Assembly: GCA_016183775.1 (NCBI GenBank)
Contig: JACPDY010000090.1
Span: 1-42,345 of the forward strand
Origin: Bacteroidota bacterium
GTDB lineage: Bacteria > Bacteroidota > Bacteroidia > JABDFU01
DNA length: 42,345 bases
Direction of reading: 5' to 3'
Shown here: positions 28,054 through 34,901 of the stretch, one piece after another
Numbering within the stretch: position 1 is the stretch's first letter
Layout of the letters: every line of letters begins with the position of its first letter
Program-made: the position numbers and the translations under genes
Notes under the pieces: generated by a model
Databases searched by the model: none
What the model was told of the DNA's origin: nothing
The model's input: the letters and a program-made list of their open reading frames with translations, nothing else

Positions 28054-28083
28054 TTGCCTTGTGAATTGCTTTGCCTACTTTTA
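28054..28083 (+). promoter_or_regulatory. Candidate promoter of the THX gene
   Basis: TTG (28054-28056), 19 bases, then TACTTTTA (28076-28083), one base from the Bacteroidota consensus. The start codon is 26 bases downstream. Confidence 0.55.
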
Positions 28084-28109
28084 CGGTATTAAACCAAATA
28101 AAAACAAAA

Positions 28110-28298
28110 ATGGGAAAAGGAGACAAAAAAAGCCGCAAAGGCAAAATATTTATGGGTTCGTATGGCGTAAGTCGCCCTCATAAAAAGAAAAAATCAAGAA
28201 GCGCATCACCAAAAAAGATAGCGAAGAAAGCTGAAAAAGCAGAGACAGCTGTTCCTAAAAAAACGGCTCCTAAGAAGGCAGCCAAGAAAAAAGATTAA
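28110..28298 (+). CDS. 30S ribosomal protein THX
   Basis: A 62-residue, very basic protein beginning MGKGDKKSRKGKIFMGSYG, the signature of the small 30S protein THX, which sits in a cavity at the top of the 30S head. An alternative start at 28071 would add 13 residues overlapping the promoter and is rejected. The C-terminal half is an unusually long Lys/Ala-rich tail (KKAEKAETAVPKK) that the Thermus protein lacks, but extended forms are normal in Bacteroidota. It has its own promoter and a bidirectional terminator. Confidence 0.85.
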   Translation: MGKGDKKSRKGKIFMGSYGVSRPHKKKKSRSASPKKIAKKAEKAETAVPKKTAPKKAAKKKD

Positions 28299-28330: not shown

Positions 28331-28987
28331 TTAAGGTGCCAGGCGTTGTAAATTCCAGCTAATCTCATCATCCGATAATGTAAACTGCATCCTGTCGTGC
28401 AAACGATTCTGACGGCCTTGCCAGAACTCTATCATTGATGGCTTTAACAAATAACCGCCCCAGAATGGAGGGCAGGGAACTTTTTCTCCGGGATATTTAG
28501 CCGATAATTCAACAAATTTTCCTTCAAGCACTTCTCTGCTTTTTATAACCTGGCTCTGTTCAGAAACCCATGCTCCTATCTTACTTTCACGCGGTCGCGA
28601 ATTAAAATATTTTTCTGATATTTCTGCACTTACCTTTTCCAGCCGGCCTTCAACACGTACCTGGCGTTCTATCTGCGGCCAGAAGAATGTCAGCGCAGCA
28701 TATGGGTTTTTAGCAATATCTACGCCCTTTTTGCTGTTATAATTGGTATAGAAAACAAATCCTTTATCAGTAAAACCTCTCAATAACACAATACGGGAAG
28801 ATGGCTTTCCATCAGCACTGACAGTGGAAAGGGCCATGGCATGGGGTTCGCTTACGTTGGCCGCGATGGCTTCCTTCATCCATAATTCAAACTGCAGGAC
28901 AGGATCTTTTGCAATTTCACTTTCATTCAGCTCCATCCGCGAATAGTCAGAACGGAGTTTTCGTATTTGCTGATTCAATTCATCCAT
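28331..28987 (-). CDS. pdxH: Pyridoxamine 5'-phosphate oxidase
   Basis: The 218-residue FMN enzyme that oxidises PNP/PMP to pyridoxal phosphate. It has RIVLLRGF (FMN phosphate contact), YTNYNSKKG, FFWPQIERQVRVEG, SRPRESKIGAWVSEQS and the C-terminal FWQGRQNRLHDR substrate and FMN motif. Length is normal and the gene intact. It is the last gene of a tight minus-strand run with the FPD-repeat, SpoIIE and caspase genes; the link in function is not obvious. Confidence 0.95.
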   Translation of the reverse strand: MDELNQQIRKLRSDYSRMELNESEIAKDPVLQFELWMKEAIAANVSEPHAMALSTVSADGKPSSRIVLLRGFTDKGFVFYTNYNSKKGVDIAKNPYAALTFFWPQIERQVRVEGRLEKVSAEISEKYFNSRPRESKIGAWVSEQSQVIKSREVLEGKFVELSAKYPGEKVPCPPFWGGYLLKPSMIEFWQGRQNRLHDRMQFTLSDDEISWNLQRLAP

Positions 28988-28995
28988 GGCATCTG

Positions 28996-29382
28996 TTATT
29001 TAATTCCGGGAAATGCTTCCACAAATTTAACTTTTATATCCGGAAACGCGTCTACTATCTGAACCTTCAGGTCGGGAAAGGCCTCGACTACCTGCCATTT
29101 CCCACACTGGTCAGGAAAAGCTTCAACCATTTTTACTTTAATATCAGGGAACGCGTCAACTATCTGGATTTTTATATCGGGAAAGGCGGTTACATATTTG
29201 ATCTTACCATATAATTTCATTCCATTGAATTTGCAATCGTCGGTGACCTTATCCCCATCAATCTTTCCCAACGCAATAGTCTTATTCACAACAGCCGAAT
29301 CCTTTGGCAAGGAGCCGGCAAAACAGGTAATTGCAATATGGCCGAAGAGAATTGGAAGAAATATTCTATTAACTATCTTCAT
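28996..29382 (-). CDS. Secreted FPD-repeat protein, possible 7(1) septoil-knot family
   Basis: About 128 residues from the ATG at 29382 (MKIVNRIFLP), with a signal peptide ending CFAGS. After CKFNGMKLYGKIKYV comes a regular series of six units of the form V-x-A-F-P-(D/G), each followed by a short strand such as IKIQIV, and one unit carrying QCGKWQ. Two cysteines (in DDCKF and DQCGKW) could pair. This pattern recalls the 7(1) septoil knot family (formerly a DUF), in which seven such strands make a very complex protein knot; I recognise it from memory, so the assignment is tentative. It lies 8 bases before pdxH and 15 after the SpoIIE gene. Its role is not known. Confidence 0.65.
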   Translation of the reverse strand: MKIVNRIFLPILFGHIAITCFAGSLPKDSAVVNKTIALGKIDGDKVTDDCKFNGMKLYGKIKYVTAFPDIKIQIVDAFPDIKVKMVEAFPDQCGKWQVVEAFPDLKVQIVDAFPDIKVKFVEAFPGIK

Positions 29383-29397
29383 TAAAAGCAATGTGAG

Positions 29398-32300
29398 TTA
29401 AAGGCGTGTTCCTATCAACAATATATCATCGACCTGCTCAAATCCCTCTTTCCATTGATCAATCGCTTTGGTCATGTATTCGCCCTGTTCTTTCATATCC
29501 AGGTGTTGCGTATCAAGCAGCATTTTCTTAAACGCGCTGTATTTCAGTTTTTTCCCATTCGCCCCTCCGAACTGGTCAGCATAGCCATCAGAAAAGATAT
29601 ATATACTATCCCCTTTTTCCAGTTGTATACTGTGATTTGTAAATTTATGCTGATCACCCGACTTAAGGTTGCCAATTGGAAATTTATTCGCTTTTATTTC
29701 ATTTAAAACACCGTTACGTATCCGGTACAATGGATTAAACGCTCCTGAATACTGCAGCTCGTTTGTTTTACGATCGAACATACAAAGCGCAATGTCCATG
29801 CCATCTTTTACCTGCTCTTCCGCGTGTGATTGGCGCAAAGTTTCACTTACACTTTTATTCAACGCGTCCAGAACAAGCGCGGGTTGAGTGATCCCCTGTT
29901 CACCCACTATTTGCTCAAGATGGTTATGCCCGATAATCGACATGAATGCTCCTGGAACGCCGTGTCCCGTACAATCAACTGCTGCGAACAACACTTTATC
30001 TCCTTTGTCGTGCAGCCAGTAAAAATCTCCACTCACAATATCCTTAGGCTTAAACAGGATAAATGTTTTCGGCAAATATTTTTCCACAAATTCATCAGGC
30101 GGCAGTATGGCATCCTGTATACGTTTTGCATAGCGTATGCTGGCCATTATATCTTTATTCTTTTCATCCAACTGCTTGTTCTTTTCCACTACTTCCGCCG
30201 TTCTTTTACGAACTTTTTCCTCAAGCACACGTTTTTCCACCACTAATTTGCGTTCCCTCCATTTTACATATGTAAAGAATAATACCACTCCGACAACCAC
30301 ATAGGTAAGGTATGCCCACCAGGTGAAATACCAGGGAGGCCTTACGCGGAATGAAAATGTTACAGGTTCCTTGTTCCATACTCCCAGGTTATTGGAAGCT
30401 TTGACTTTGAAGGTATAATTACCGGGAGCAAGATTTGAATAAATGACCGATGTTTGATTTGTTGCAGGCCGCCAGTTCTCTTCTTCCCCTTCAAGCATTA
30501 CCATAAATTTTACCGCGTCGGGATTGGAAATACATATACCTGAATAGCTGAACATCAATGTGTTTTGATCATAGCCCAAAGAATAATTATTTTCAAGGGG
30601 AATAGAGCGTGAGTAATTGTATTTGATATCAGTGATATTGGTAAGCGCTTCAAGCGTATTCAGCTGATCGTATGTAGAGTTGTATTTTATTACCCCGTTC
30701 ACAGTACCAAACCAGATATTTCCTTTTTTATCGACATGAACAGCATTCGGCTTGGTCTCAATGGCCGTGAACCCTTCGAATTTACCATAGGAAATAAAAT
30801 TTTTTGAATTTTGAACAAAACGACTGAGGCCTTTGTTTGTTCCTATCCAGACATCTCCTTTATTGTCTGTAACAAGCAGGTTAATATAATCCGATACCAA
30901 ACCATCCTGTGTTGTATAGTGCCTGAATGCTGTGCCATTGTATACAAATACCCCGCCGCCCGATGTGCCGATCCATAAGTTACCCGCTTTGTCTTCTGTT
31001 AATGCTGTGGGTGAGGTATTTGTTAATCCTTCCTTTTTAGCATATAATTTAAAATCTTTTCCATTGTATTTATACAACCCTCTTCCGACAACACTGATCC
31101 ATATATTATTTTTTGAATCGCAATATAACGCGTTTATTTCTTTCGCGTCGAAATTCCTTGTGCCTACAAAGTCTCTTATACTGGTGGCCTCAGGATCAAA
31201 CACAACCAAAGCATTACCAGTAGCGATCCAGATATTATCCTTTGCGTCAACGCACAACGCGGCAATGAATGGATTACTTATAAAGTCATTAACAACAGAA
31301 ACAGCACCGAACTCATTTGTTTTGGAGTTGTACTTCAATAATTTATCCTGGTAGGTACCCAGCCAAACATCTCCTTTGCTGTCGCGGACTGCCGCACGAA
31401 ATGCCACCTTTCCGCTGCCTATGATCTTTTCGTGATTGTTAAACGTGCCTGCGACAGGATCTAATACAGATACACCGTTGCCTGTTGCAATAAAAATATT
31501 TCCATTCTCCACTTCCTGAACAGCCCATACCTTGTCATTGATCAATCCCTGGGAAACATTATACGTAATAAAGCGCTCACCTTTAAAGATGAATAACCCG
31601 CTGCCCTGCGTACCAACCAGTATATTGCCTTCACGGTCAATACTCAGCGCGTAAATTTTCAAGGCTGGCAAACCATTACCTGCGTGATAGTTCGTCAATT
31701 TCCCATCAGCGGATAGTTTAACCAGTCCGTCGCCCCATGTGGCCGCCCAGGTATTACCATTCTTATCAAAAACAATATCGCGTATCCATACAGGAACGGG
31801 AAATGACCTGGTTGATCTTTTCACCGGATCATACTTTACAAGTGCCGGTTGACCTAAAGTGGAACCATACCAAAGGTTACCTTGTTCATCTTCTTTGATA
31901 GCGGACACATAAGCTACCGACTGTCCGTTTATACGAAGGAATTCGAACTTGTCTGAGCCGGGTAATAAATATTTTACTCCTACATCAGTGAGGAAACAGA
32001 TGTTTCCGTTTTTCGACTCAAACATACTGAACACATAGCTGCTCAGGCCGTCGCCGGAACAATAGAATTTTAAATTCCCTTCAGCAGTAAGTTCGTCATT
32101 TGGTTTATTGATCAGTACAACACCAAACATGGCAACGGACACCCATATTTTGCCTGTCTTATCTTCATAAATAGAATAGATCTTTTTATCCCTGATACTG
32201 TCAGGTGATAGCTTTTCAAACTTGTTGTCGATATAACGGGTTATGGTACCGGAACTGTGCCCAAGCCAAAGCTCGTCGTTACTGGTCAAGAGCATGGCGC

Positions 32301-32547
32301 TGATATTGTTATCAGCTAAGCCATCGTCGGTTGTGTAATTGTAAAAAGTCTTTCCATCGAATCGTGAAAGTCCGCCTTCTGTTCCGAGCCATATATTCCC
32401 CTTTTTATCCTGTACAATACCAATGACATTGGATTGAATAAGACCTTCGGTTACGGAGTAATTGTCGAATGAATAAAGTTGTGAGAATAACTGACCTGAA
32501 AGGAAGCAAAGGAGAATTAAAAAGAAACCATCTTTTTTACGATACAT
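29398..32547 (-). CDS. Propeller-Y_Y_Y sensor with SpoIIE phosphatase output
   Basis: A 1049-residue membrane receptor: signal peptide (1-22); about fourteen two-component-regulator propeller repeats (reg_prop, such as GNIWLGTEGGLSRFDG) filling roughly 25-680 and likely forming two periplasmic propellers; a Y_Y_Y beta-sandwich (about 690-765); a TM helix (about 770-790); a coiled coil (about 795-835); and a cytoplasmic PP2C/SpoIIE domain. Metal-binding aspartates are intact: SGDFYW (D841), DCTGHG (D858), FSDG (D987) and VDDILLIG (D1040-D1041). There is no histidine kinase or DNA-binding domain, so the output is dephosphorylation of an unknown partner. It sits between the caspase gene (14 bases upstream) and the FPD-repeat gene. 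Confidence 0.87.
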   Translation of the reverse strand: MYRKKDGFFLILLCFLSGQLFSQLYSFDNYSVTEGLIQSNVIGIVQDKKGNIWLGTEGGLSRFDGKTFYNYTTDDGLADNNISAMLLTSNDELWLGHSSGTITRYIDNKFEKLSPDSIRDKKIYSIYEDKTGKIWVSVAMFGVVLINKPNDELTAEGNLKFYCSGDGLSSYVFSMFESKNGNICFLTDVGVKYLLPGSDKFEFLRINGQSVAYVSAIKEDEQGNLWYGSTLGQPALVKYDPVKRSTRSFPVPVWIRDIVFDKNGNTWAATWGDGLVKLSADGKLTNYHAGNGLPALKIYALSIDREGNILVGTQGSGLFIFKGERFITYNVSQGLINDKVWAVQEVENGNIFIATGNGVSVLDPVAGTFNNHEKIIGSGKVAFRAAVRDSKGDVWLGTYQDKLLKYNSKTNEFGAVSVVNDFISNPFIAALCVDAKDNIWIATGNALVVFDPEATSIRDFVGTRNFDAKEINALYCDSKNNIWISVVGRGLYKYNGKDFKLYAKKEGLTNTSPTALTEDKAGNLWIGTSGGGVFVYNGTAFRHYTTQDGLVSDYINLLVTDNKGDVWIGTNKGLSRFVQNSKNFISYGKFEGFTAIETKPNAVHVDKKGNIWFGTVNGVIKYNSTYDQLNTLEALTNITDIKYNYSRSIPLENNYSLGYDQNTLMFSYSGICISNPDAVKFMVMLEGEEENWRPATNQTSVIYSNLAPGNYTFKVKASNNLGVWNKEPVTFSFRVRPPWYFTWWAYLTYVVVGVVLFFTYVKWRERKLVVEKRVLEEKVRKRTAEVVEKNKQLDEKNKDIMASIRYAKRIQDAILPPDEFVEKYLPKTFILFKPKDIVSGDFYWLHDKGDKVLFAAVDCTGHGVPGAFMSIIGHNHLEQIVGEQGITQPALVLDALNKSVSETLRQSHAEEQVKDGMDIALCMFDRKTNELQYSGAFNPLYRIRNGVLNEIKANKFPIGNLKSGDQHKFTNHSIQLEKGDSIYIFSDGYADQFGGANGKKLKYSAFKKMLLDTQHLDMKEQGEYMTKAIDQWKEGFEQVDDILLIGTRL

Positions 32548-32561
32548 GAGTCATTTCTACA

Positions 32562-34901
32562 TTATTTTTTCATGAAAAAGAAGGTGCCGTCTTCATCCTC
32601 GAGATCCTTGATCTTACGAAGTTTCGGGGCCTGGTTAGCTGTTTTCTGAACAGCAGAGGCTACCTTTTCCGAAATCTTGTCAATTGAAATGCAGCCATCC
32701 GGATTGTTGTTCAATGAGGCAGCGAATGTTTTTGTGAACTGGGAGTTGTCGGCAGCCAATTCGAAACCGGCGGATGAAAGTACCTGGGAGGATTTCAGTT
32801 TTGTTGATTCCCAATCATCACAGCGTCTTTCCTTAGGTGTTGCACGCATGGCAAGCATAAATGAGGGACCGGATTCACATGCATCAGTTATTACGAGGAG
32901 GTGGGCCAATTTATCATATCCCTGGAGCGATCCTTTTAAATTATTTATGCTAAAGTAAGTGAACTCATCATCCACTTTGGCATCCACAGGTATCCAATAG
33001 CCTGTCTGGTTCACGAACTTACCATGACCGGCATACCAGATAACAACTGATGTTACATTATTCAGCCTTAACTGATCGCGCAATTCAATAGAGAAGAATT
33101 TTTCAAGACCATCTTTGGTAAGATCTTTTTTATGAATTATTTTATTCACCTTATAATTTACAAGTGCTGATTTCATCATGGTCACGTCCTTACCGGGTCC
33201 TTCGAGTATCGGAAAGTTCTTGTAATTGGTATTTTCAACAAATACGACCCAGGTAATACCCATAGGATTATCCCTGGCCACAAGCGCCCCTTCCCTGTTG
33301 AGTTTGTATTTTACATTTGTTTCATTTCCATTGATATCTCTCACCCTGATATTTATATCGTTTTTATTGGCAATGCTCGCTTTGATGGAAAAGGTCGGAT
33401 TTAAAGCTTCAAGCGCATAACTGGCCGAAACACCTTCAACGATAATTGATTCGATCAGGCTCTCGTCCTTTACTTTGCCTTCAATATAAAGTTCGGGGTT
33501 GGTATTATCCATGAATATTTCATTGTCAGACGAAGCCATCGGCGATATTAATTCAACCAAAGGCTTATTGATCTCCGTGCGATCGATAGTGTAGATAATT
33601 TTTTTAGTATTATCGTATATATCGCTTGCCGTTATCGAAAATTCATTTCCGGTGCCTATCTGAATTCCTCCACTGAAATCGGGATTAAGAGTGTCCTTAC
33701 TAAAATTAGCAGGAACATTATTGATGTTTATAGCCTTGATCTTACTTGCATCCTTAACAGTCCCCCTTACTACGATCTCCGTTTTATCGCCGGGAAGTTT
33801 AACTACATTCTTTTCATTTGCTTTAGGTGTAAGAAGTTCTATTTCGGGTTTATAACTTTCACGGTTCAACTCGAACAGTTTTTCTATAGCGGCCTTCATC
33901 ATCTCTCTGGCTTTCTCATTATTCGGAGCAAGTGTCATTATCTTTTCATAATCGACCGCTGCCGATTTAAAATTGGTAAGCTGTTCATAGTTCCAGGCGC
34001 GTTTGTAATAAGCCTGCAAAAGATCCTTCCCGTTCATCCCGATCACTTTTGAGAAGTCGTATATCGCGTTCTGGTATTGACCTAATTTTTCGTAATACTC
34101 TCCCCTCTTCATGAATAACATTTCATTGTTCTGATCGCTGACAATTACCTTTGAAATATCATTCACAGCTGTTCCGAAATCATTTTTGCTGGCAAAGATG
34201 CAGCTGCGGGCATAAAAAATATCTTTATTGGTCGGATCTTTCGATATCGCTACATCAGCAATGCTTAATGCTTCGTCATACTTTTTCAGTTTATCCTGTA
34301 CAAGAATAAGTCCGACATAAGCTGGGATAAACTTTGAGTCATAGTATTTGGAATTTTTATAGTCCTTCTCCGCTTCAATATAATTTTTCAGACTGTCCAA
34401 CATAACCGCGTGATAGTAATAGGCCGGTGCTGTTCTTTTATTATCAATCCAGAGTTGTGAAGCCTCCAGTCCATCCTTGAAATTTTTGAGCTTCAAAAGA
34501 ACCTTGAGAAAAACCTCTATGGCTTCACTATATTCTTTATCCTTAACAATGGCATCCCTGAGCATTGCGTCGGCTTCCGTATACTTACCGAGATCATAAT
34601 AAAGACGTCCTGCATTGTAATAATTTTCTTTATCCTTGGGTGCAAAAACAGTTGCGCGCCTGTAGTCATCGGCCGCATCAGCACTTTTTCCTGTTTTTTC
34701 ATAGCAATATGCGCGGGCCTGATAAGCCTTAACATACTTGGGATCAAGTTCTATTGCTTTCGTATAACTGGCAATTGCATCCTGGTAGGACAGACTTTCA
34801 AGAAATTTCCCTCCGGTGCTGTAAAATTTTTTTGCACTCTGCCCTTTTACAAATAAAGTGCATATCAGAAGGGAAAATAACAGGAGTGTTTTCTTAAACA
34901 T
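32562..34901 (-). CDS. Secreted TPR protein with C-terminal caspase (C14) domain
   Basis: A 779-residue protein: signal peptide (1-20, ending KGQ), nine or so TPRs (about 25-345), two beta-sandwich/Ig-like segments (about 350-540, each ending in a D-x-x-G/N-x-x-K strand), and a caspase-like peptidase domain (551-779). The catalytic dyad is complete: H626 in WYAGHG and C675 in TDACESG. Orthocaspases of this type cut after basic residues or Asp depending on the S1 pocket, which I did not assign. Being exported, it may act in the periplasm or on the surface. It is the first gene of a four-gene run with the SpoIIE receptor. Confidence 0.87.
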   Translation of the reverse strand: MFKKTLLLFSLLICTLFVKGQSAKKFYSTGGKFLESLSYQDAIASYTKAIELDPKYVKAYQARAYCYEKTGKSADAADDYRRATVFAPKDKENYYNAGRLYYDLGKYTEADAMLRDAIVKDKEYSEAIEVFLKVLLKLKNFKDGLEASQLWIDNKRTAPAYYYHAVMLDSLKNYIEAEKDYKNSKYYDSKFIPAYVGLILVQDKLKKYDEALSIADVAISKDPTNKDIFYARSCIFASKNDFGTAVNDISKVIVSDQNNEMLFMKRGEYYEKLGQYQNAIYDFSKVIGMNGKDLLQAYYKRAWNYEQLTNFKSAAVDYEKIMTLAPNNEKAREMMKAAIEKLFELNRESYKPEIELLTPKANEKNVVKLPGDKTEIVVRGTVKDASKIKAININNVPANFSKDTLNPDFSGGIQIGTGNEFSITASDIYDNTKKIIYTIDRTEINKPLVELISPMASSDNEIFMDNTNPELYIEGKVKDESLIESIIVEGVSASYALEALNPTFSIKASIANKNDINIRVRDINGNETNVKYKLNREGALVARDNPMGITWVVFVENTNYKNFPILEGPGKDVTMMKSALVNYKVNKIIHKKDLTKDGLEKFFSIELRDQLRLNNVTSVVIWYAGHGKFVNQTGYWIPVDAKVDDEFTYFSINNLKGSLQGYDKLAHLLVITDACESGPSFMLAMRATPKERRCDDWESTKLKSSQVLSSAGFELAADNSQFTKTFAASLNNNPDGCISIDKISEKVASAVQKTANQAPKLRKIKDLEDEDGTFFFMKK

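Follow-up and report, generated by a model that had tools for sequence, protein, structure and literature searches.

A short gene on a contig of a Bacteroidota bacterium encodes a protein built largely of regular V-x-x-F-P-D units. The initial annotation took the product for a possible 7_1 ("septoil") knot tied to a caspase/SpoIIE operon, and the locus raises the questions of which family the protein belongs to, what path its chain is likely to follow, and whether it is connected with the neighboring genes. We analyzed the window, which is the whole stretch of 42,345 nucleotides of contig JACPDY010000090.1, together with relatives of the protein encoded elsewhere. Loci of relatives are designated by L numbers and congener genomes by G numbers. 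The window protein most likely adds an exported member to an already known family of knotted proteins.

A gene encoding six V-x-x-F-P-D units

The gene and the parts of its product are as follows.

28996..29382, minus strand: six-repeat septafoil-family gene with a probably exported product (128 aa; the stop is included, and the ORF without it is 28999-29382)
29311..29382, minus strand: presumed signal peptide, approximately residues 1-24 (MKIVNRIFLPILFGHIAITCFAGS), seen in the sequence
29233..29235, minus strand: Cys50 codon, presumed disulfide partner of Cys93 (family cysteine counts)
29176..29196, minus strand: repeat unit 1, YVTAFPD, residues 63-69
29143..29163, minus strand: repeat unit 2, IVDAFPD, residues 74-80
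29110..29130, minus strand: repeat unit 3, MVEAFPD, residues 85-91
29104..29106, minus strand: Cys93 codon, in the D-Q-C-G-K-W insert between units 3 and 4 (family cysteine counts)
29071..29091, minus strand: repeat unit 4, VVEAFPD, residues 98-104
29038..29058, minus strand: repeat unit 5, IVDAFPD, residues 109-115
29005..29025, minus strand: repeat unit 6, the closing unit, FVEAFPG, residues 120-126

Translation of the minus strand at 28996-29382 gave a reading frame of 128 residues from ATG to stop. The coordinates given in the initial annotation are exact, and the regular repeat, the two cysteines, and a signal-like N-terminus are present as described there. There are six V-x-x-F-P-D units, of which units 1-5 end in FPD and the sixth in FPG. 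C50 and C93 lie in the mature part, an extra cysteine (C20) falls inside the presumed signal peptide, and residues ~1-24 are signal-like by sequence. Units follow one another at 11, 11, 13, 11, and 11 residues from start to start, giving a VxxFPD repeat with a longer middle segment. The self-match of the units was 80 of 105, whereas 5000 shuffles of the part beginning at residue 25 never scored above 26; the repeat is far above chance.

The repeat units are old at the DNA level. Their mean nucleotide identity is 66%, and codons for the same amino acid were identical in 25 of 75 unit comparisons, versus 28.8 expected from the codon usage of six neighboring genes. The longest DNA repeat found in the gene (74 nt, 80%) relates units 1-3 to units 4-6, and the source genome, which is 97.7% complete, holds one copy of the gene. 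Recent duplication or gene conversion as the origin of the near-identical units was considered and rejected, codon agreement in the window gene being at expectation. Across 81 family genes, codon agreement ranged from 0.42 to 0.53 over the 15 unit pairs (0.48 overall), and valine codons in 80 family genes agreed slightly in excess (453 of 1203, versus 386 expected). A scan of the sequence for promoters and terminators returned counts similar to those of shuffles.

Relationship to the knotted protein Q9PR55

A 7_1 knot was predicted for Q9PR55 (UU089.1) of Ureaplasma urealyticum by Brems et al. (PMC9278004) and later confirmed by crystallography (PMC11223836, PMC13352647); in the accessible portions of these three papers, it is the only protein named with a confirmed 7_1 knot. 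The same portions of Brems et al. 2022 (PMC9278004) describe P73136, a protein of 112 aa homologous to Q9PR55 at 48% identity, with a predicted 5_1 knot and a core at residues 45-94. A search covering part of the literature returned, judging by titles and accessible text, no further papers on this family beyond those cited here.

A phmmer search with the single window sequence matched UU089.1 (8iwa) at E = 1e-10, aligning residues 60-117 with chain residues 26-85 and covering the knotted core of the solved member (27-83). A profile of 91 family rows matched the same chain at E = 6.9e-15. Entries of UU089.1 (8iwa and four more, 8iwb, 8iwc, 8jrm, and 8w68) were the only significant solved relative. 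The homology makes the window protein a relative of the solved 7_1-knotted protein, UU089.1/Q9PR55. The two have the VxxFPD repeat and homology over window residues 60-117 in common, with ~46% identity as counted by eye on the phmmer alignment, and the window protein is predicted to be all-beta like Q9PR55. Q9PR55 has five units whereas the window protein has six, and, within the alignment to chain residues 26-85, the spacing is 11-13-13-11 in the former and 11-11-13-11-11 in the latter. Unlike Q9PR55, the window protein has a signal-like N-terminus and a CGKW insert with a cysteine pair. Q9PR55 resists urea and proteolysis. P73136, which we take to be of cyanobacterial origin, is close in length to many of the relatives and differs in its reported 5_1 knot.

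Membership in a septoil-knot family, which the initial annotation had considered, is supported by the homology and by Q9PR55 being the nearest solved fold of a confident model (see below). The profile search suggested there for a septoil-knot domain yielded nothing: no model of that name was among the Pfam or NCBIfam matches listed for the 91 rows (25 of 30 Pfam families). The window protein itself scored at best 11.7 bits against Pfam (cut-off 28.4) and 13.1 against NCBIfam (cut-off 34.2). Among the matches listed for the 91 rows, DUF6893 had the best E value in Pfam (0.00052; 29 of 91 rows) and an archaeal Xpf model the best in NCBIfam (0.00034; 37 of 91 rows); both families are of an unlike kind. 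The only profile family found to catch every row was phrog_6462 (PHROGs v4, function not known), which matched 91 of 91 rows and aligned with the window protein over positions 12-102 of 103 at E = 1.4e-31. It is a cluster of phage proteins, whereas the window copy has cellular neighbors.

The Knotted Solenoid fold is also a repetitive beta protein with a knot; the accessible text on it describes a 3_1 knot, a dimeric state, occurrence mainly in Caulobacteraceae, and identities down to 6% (PMC13123833). This fold was absent from the Foldseek matches of the window model.

Distribution and architecture of the family

Relatives were found to be encoded in 217 stretches of the GTDB genomes searched, and 79 loci were kept. 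According to record titles, they belong to Bacteroidetes, Ignavibacteria/Chlorobiota, Myxococcaceae, Alpha- and Gammaproteobacteria, Spirochaetes, and one cyanobacterium. Most come from MAGs; the named strains are Spirulina sp. CS-785/01, Minicystis rosea, Bizionia arctica, Aureivirga sp. CE67, and Henriciella barbarensis. Three plasmid records (two of Leptospira weilii and one of Burkholderia) and three viral contigs also matched. A protein search was positive in 7 of 100 genomes, the source genome counted and three of the other six weak (E 3e-9 to 3e-6), and a search with phrog_6462 was positive in 11 of 395 genomes of the phylum, the source genome among them. The family is patchy and spans several phyla.

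When rows are read at fixed offsets, 82 of 83 show the unit spacing of the window protein (the exception is L102); this uniformity is partly selected because the rows were found using motifs of that type. Unit 1 is longer by two residues in L012 and L014, and F-P-D is missing in L005 and L006. L102, whose motif differs, was left out of the unit tables and of alignment A4; L021, from a congener of the window, was left out of A4 and of most counts. L018 (internal stop) and L007 (divergent) were kept out of all alignments, and L019 and L020 out of the structure input. Tree and partition counts for the residue before F (x2) were made without L005, L006, L012, and L014, and coupling runs without L005 and L006. 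Near-identical rows were down-weighted in the coupling runs alone and otherwise carried full weight.

Two loci carry the domain twice. At L097 (5908-6567 (+), JAFGME010000137.1), a 220-aa ORF has two complete tandem domains (E 1.1e-26 and 5.9e-41) behind a single signal-like N-terminus. At L025, two separate family copies start at 2644 and 5827 (+), ~3 kb apart on one Flavobacteriales MAG contig. Conserved genes flank the family gene at nine Ignavibacteria-type loci (L023, L028, L034, L041, L042, L058, L061, L066, and L079), and this shared gene order suggests vertical inheritance there.

Signal-like N-termini and paired cysteines

By a crude heuristic, the N-terminus is hydrophobic in 79 of 81 relatives, a set to which the window protein does not belong. 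The two misses are L024, in which inspection by eye shows a hydrophobic N-terminus following a non-ATG start, and L083, which is doubtful. The window protein is probably exported, as a periplasmic or secreted protein, judging from its own signal-like N-terminus.

Of the 91 rows, 86 contain both core cysteines, three contain neither, and two contain the N-terminal one only; the pair is accordingly kept or lost together in 89 of 91. The two rows with the N-terminal cysteine only, L005 and L006, have another cysteine at the C-terminus. The coupling between the two positions (C5-C48 in model numbering) ranks 44th. Taken with the signal-like N-termini, the cysteine pattern fits a disulfide formed after export, and a Cys50-Cys93 disulfide is presumed for the window protein. 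The cysteine-free members are L013 (1501-1734 (-)), which is also without an evident signal peptide, and L016 and L017, which have His before F in all six units.

The residue before F varies coherently among units

At x2, identity among the units of one protein (0.813) exceeded that between proteins at the same unit (0.524; shuffle 0.521; 81 rows). The residue is identical in all six units in 56 of 87 rows, and the dominant one is Ser, Ala, Asn, or His in 85 of 87, with Ala in the window protein. On the tree, 108 unit pairs changed to the same residue on the same branch, versus 18.5 expected. Weaker excesses of this kind were seen at x1 (52 versus 29.3), the residue after D (14 versus 3.6), and P (8 versus 1.2). 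No excess was seen at x0, the residue before V (12 versus 12.8). Since gene conversion should carry x0 along and x0 is unaffected, the simplest reading is that the six small residues pack together. A split of x2 into two triads ({1,4,5} and {2,3,6}) gave a best partition that was reached in 379 of 20,000 permutations, a pattern that is suggestive only.

Predicted structure

AlphaFold2 with the 91 rows gave a model of six short strands with a mean pLDDT of 95.3 and a pTM of 0.82, and its five models ranged from 92.6 to 95.3 in mean pLDDT. A full-length prediction from 14 rows (pLDDT 37.8) was not used. In a Foldseek search of the PDB, the four matches at E ≤ 0.001 were all Q9PR55 entries (E 5.4e-6 to 1.5e-4, probability 0.99-1.00). 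Foldseek superposed the model on these entries poorly, with a TMq of 0.33-0.35 and an rmsd of 10.2 Å across 64-67 columns, although the identity count in its alignment fits the sequence register by our estimate. VIA-align superposed the model on 8iwa with an rmsd of 2.0 Å over 54 residues and a Z of 6.2, which is middling per the tool's note; two other entries gave Z values of 5.9 and 4.4. The two tools thus disagree on the superposition. A BFVD search with the 91-row model found no match at E ≤ 0.001. The predicted all-beta model is confident, and Q9PR55 is its nearest solved fold. With regard to the knot in such models, the accessible text of PMC10672856 holds that AlphaFold may let chains pass through each other, and its authors single out 5_1 and 7_1 cases as possibly real.

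Coevolution favors a two-lap winding of the strands

Mean-field couplings were computed from 89 rows (Neff 58). Strong parallel coupled pairs occurred at separations of 46, 44, and 35 residues, corresponding to 4 and 3 units. Within two residues of register and with the x1 and x2 columns excluded, mean couplings between units k = 1-5 apart were 0.147, 0.096, 0.251, 0.574, and 0.035; mutual information within two residues of register was 0.021, 0.014, 0.029, 0.045, and 0.011. In exact register, again without x1 and x2, the means were 0.565, 0.290, 0.805, 0.771, and 0.363, with k = 1 not low. In 60 of 60 bootstraps, k = 3 and k = 4 exceeded k = 2, and in exact register each exceeded k = 1 in 93% of them. 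When the rows were halved at random four times or reweighted in two ways, k = 4 and k = 3 again ranked highest.

A chain following a (2,7) torus path is expected to have neighbors 3 and 4 windings apart, a (2,5) path 2 and 3 apart, and a three-sided solenoid 3 apart only. Among the 720 relabelings of the strands, the (2,7) pattern was reached by 8 including itself, (2,9) by 24, the solenoid by 288, (2,5) by 556, and a meander by 550, so that the last three do not stand out; with strands only, the counts were 8 for (2,7) and 36 for (2,9). Residues 82-83 of the tail (model numbering) couple best among the strands to strand 3 (2.89), residue 1 being slightly higher (3.04). The couplings favor a (2,7)-type winding in two laps over a plain solenoid, in a comparison that is post hoc because it was framed after the coupling list had been inspected. 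The initial annotation had named a predicted simple solenoid among the outcomes that would speak against a knot. Coevolution, with its peaks at k = 3 and 4, goes against a plain three-sided beta-solenoid in which strands stack one turn later only.

We also traced toy chains on a torus, ignoring the cases that intersect themselves, which were those with 3.0 units per lap and, at 2.5, those with long chains. At 3.5 units per lap, residues 5-83 formed a 7_1 knot in 57 of 60 closures and residues 14-83 a 5_1 knot in 55 of 60. The control, a plain solenoid, was unknotted in 30 of 30. Treated likewise, residues 15-89 of Q9PR55 gave 7_1 or 5_1, depending on the side of the strands, and its published core, 27-83, gave 3_1 in 57 of 60 closures, which means that the toy does not fully reproduce the real protein.

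Proposed fold

The likely topology, by a modest preponderance in our judgment, is 7_1, and otherwise 5_1. After being carried across the membrane by its signal peptide, the chain would circle a small ring for almost two laps and lay strands 4, 5, and 6 between strands 1, 2, and 3. The strand order would be 4-1-5-2-6-3, and the C-terminal tail would add a seventh strand. Every 11-residue unit would supply one strand and one V-x-x-F-P-D return; the core would be filled by the conserved V and F, and the small residue preceding F (Ala here) would pack with its five counterparts. The Cys50-Cys93 disulfide may pin the N-terminal segment.

The same family and fold could instead hold a 5_1 knot, with one terminal winding unthreaded. 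Such a path is described for P73136 (core 45-94; PMC9278004, in its accessible portions), it is the outcome of the toy torus when residues 14-83 alone are traced, and a path different from that of Q9PR55 would suit the poor Foldseek superposition. We consider it unlikely, while giving it real weight, as the couplings peak at k = 3 and 4 and not at 2 and 3, of all strands the tail couples best to strand 3, as expected of a seventh winding, and counting the N-terminal segment 5-13 turns the toy chain into 7_1 in 57 of 60 closures. Alternatively, the protein could be an unknotted beta-solenoid or sandwich that resembles Q9PR55 in its local repeats only. This would account for the Foldseek TM of 0.35 and rmsd of 10.2, and regular repeats are typical of solenoids. 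This reading is improbable in view of the 54 residues that VIA-align superposes at 2.0 Å, the 288 of 720 relabelings that reach a k = 3-only pattern, and the strength of k = 4, the highest within two residues of register. Scarcely any weight falls on a recent tandem expansion of low complexity with no specific fold, for which the near-identity of the six units might speak: the units are 66% identical in DNA with codon agreement at the codon-usage expectation, 82 of 83 rows have their spacing in common, and the model reaches a pLDDT of 95.

Beyond the window protein, we tentatively propose a large, mostly exported, disulfide-pinned family spanning several phyla, in which a (2,7) winding may be readable from coevolution and in which L097 might tie two knots, with up to 14 crossings, in one chain. 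A widespread family of near-fixed repeat architecture, with mostly apparently exported members, provides dozens of natural variants around Q9PR55. With these, one could study how a secreted chain comes to fold into a knot of this kind, what purpose the knot serves, and whether the disulfide helps to tie or lock it. Should coevolution reveal the strand order, the knot class would become testable without a predictor that may let chains pass through each other, and the tandem protein of L097 would allow the idea of two complex knots in a single chain to be examined.

Genomic neighborhood and role

The gene lies in a row of same-strand genes with the following neighbors.

32562..34901, minus strand: TPR + caspase (Peptidase_C14) protein, 779 aa (Pfam)
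29398..32547, minus strand: Reg_prop propeller + Y_Y_Y + SpoIIE phosphatase, 1049 aa (Pfam)
28331..28987, minus strand: pyridoxamine 5'-phosphate oxidase PdxH (TIGR00558, E = 1.3e-83)

The order is TPR-caspase, SpoIIE, family gene, and PdxH, with gaps of 14, 15, and 8 nt. Congener G002 (locus L021) has the family gene at the same place. In G004 and G005, caspase (63% and 61%), SpoIIE (41% over the N-terminal half), and pdxH (68% and 67%) genes are contiguous, with SpoIIE-pdxH gaps of 105-129 nt and 116 nt and no family gene between. Contiguity of these genes without the family gene indicates that an operon already in existence either acquired or lost it. Four congener genomes, 56-72% complete and searched by profile without a positive control, yielded no family copy (0 of 4). 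Relatives of the SpoIIE, caspase, or PdxH proteins of the window were found only at L021 among 82 relative loci (flanks of up to 6 kb per side). The neighbors that the initial annotation reported are therefore present on the same strand, but a functional tie to them is not supported, given the two congeners' operons and the single locus, itself from a congener, out of 82; the caspase/SpoIIE link looks incidental.

Two copies sit among phage structural genes. On a Leptospira weilii plasmid (L019, 5941-6252 (+)), the family gene is found among baseplate genes, two genes from the baseplate hub phrog_4930. On an IMG/VR contig (L102, 6004-6357 (+)), two baseplate-hub genes flank it, the family gene being on the opposite strand and adjoining phrog_4930. 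Both products have signal-like N-termini. Among 50,697 phage records, the window protein found no match at E 1e-3 and the Leptospira copy none at 0.1; a query with L100 at E 10 returned three records, the best at E 5.

The explanation that we regard as probable is that of an exported, torus-knotted all-beta protein of the Q9PR55/UU089.1 family, encoded by an accessory gene. The gene would be an accessory cassette that lies by chance inside the caspase-SpoIIE-pdxH operon, and the most likely role of its product would be that of a passive binding or inhibitor domain of the cell envelope that resists unfolding and proteases. Taken alone, this role is still doubtful; it is suggested by the probable export, small size, paired cysteines, and probable knot, and by the patchy occurrence in differing neighborhoods. 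Roles as phage cargo or in the caspase pathway are less likely than a resistant envelope domain of this kind. A dedicated caspase/SpoIIE component, for example a secreted ligand or a substrate of the pathway, would explain the tight same-strand gaps (14, 15, and 8 nt) and their retention in G002/L021, but is very doubtful given that the operon is contiguous without the gene in G004 and G005 and that such neighbors recur at L021 only. A mobile or phage-derived cargo gene (moron) that alters the host envelope, for example in superinfection exclusion, would agree with the capture of all 91 rows by phrog_6462, with the L. weilii and L102 copies among baseplate genes, and with the patchy distribution. 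It is improbable in light of the phage records, which held no match at E 1e-3, the conserved chromosomal gene order of the Ignavibacteria-type loci, and the window neighbors, which are cellular by Pfam and NCBIfam. The few neighbors scanned at L100 and L101 included a transposase and two nucleic-acid-type kinases, respectively, and no structural phage genes.

At eight of the 82 loci (L030, L033, L035, L037, L047, L051, L052, and L064), the gene directly upstream on the same strand is one that we take to be glutathione-peroxidase-like. This association was discounted because the eight N-termini are alike when compared by eye, suggesting a single lineage. In the window, a small basic ORF of 75 aa lies at 28071-28298 (+), read from TTG and perhaps with an internal start (MGKGDKKSRKGK); its sequence has a ribosomal-type look.
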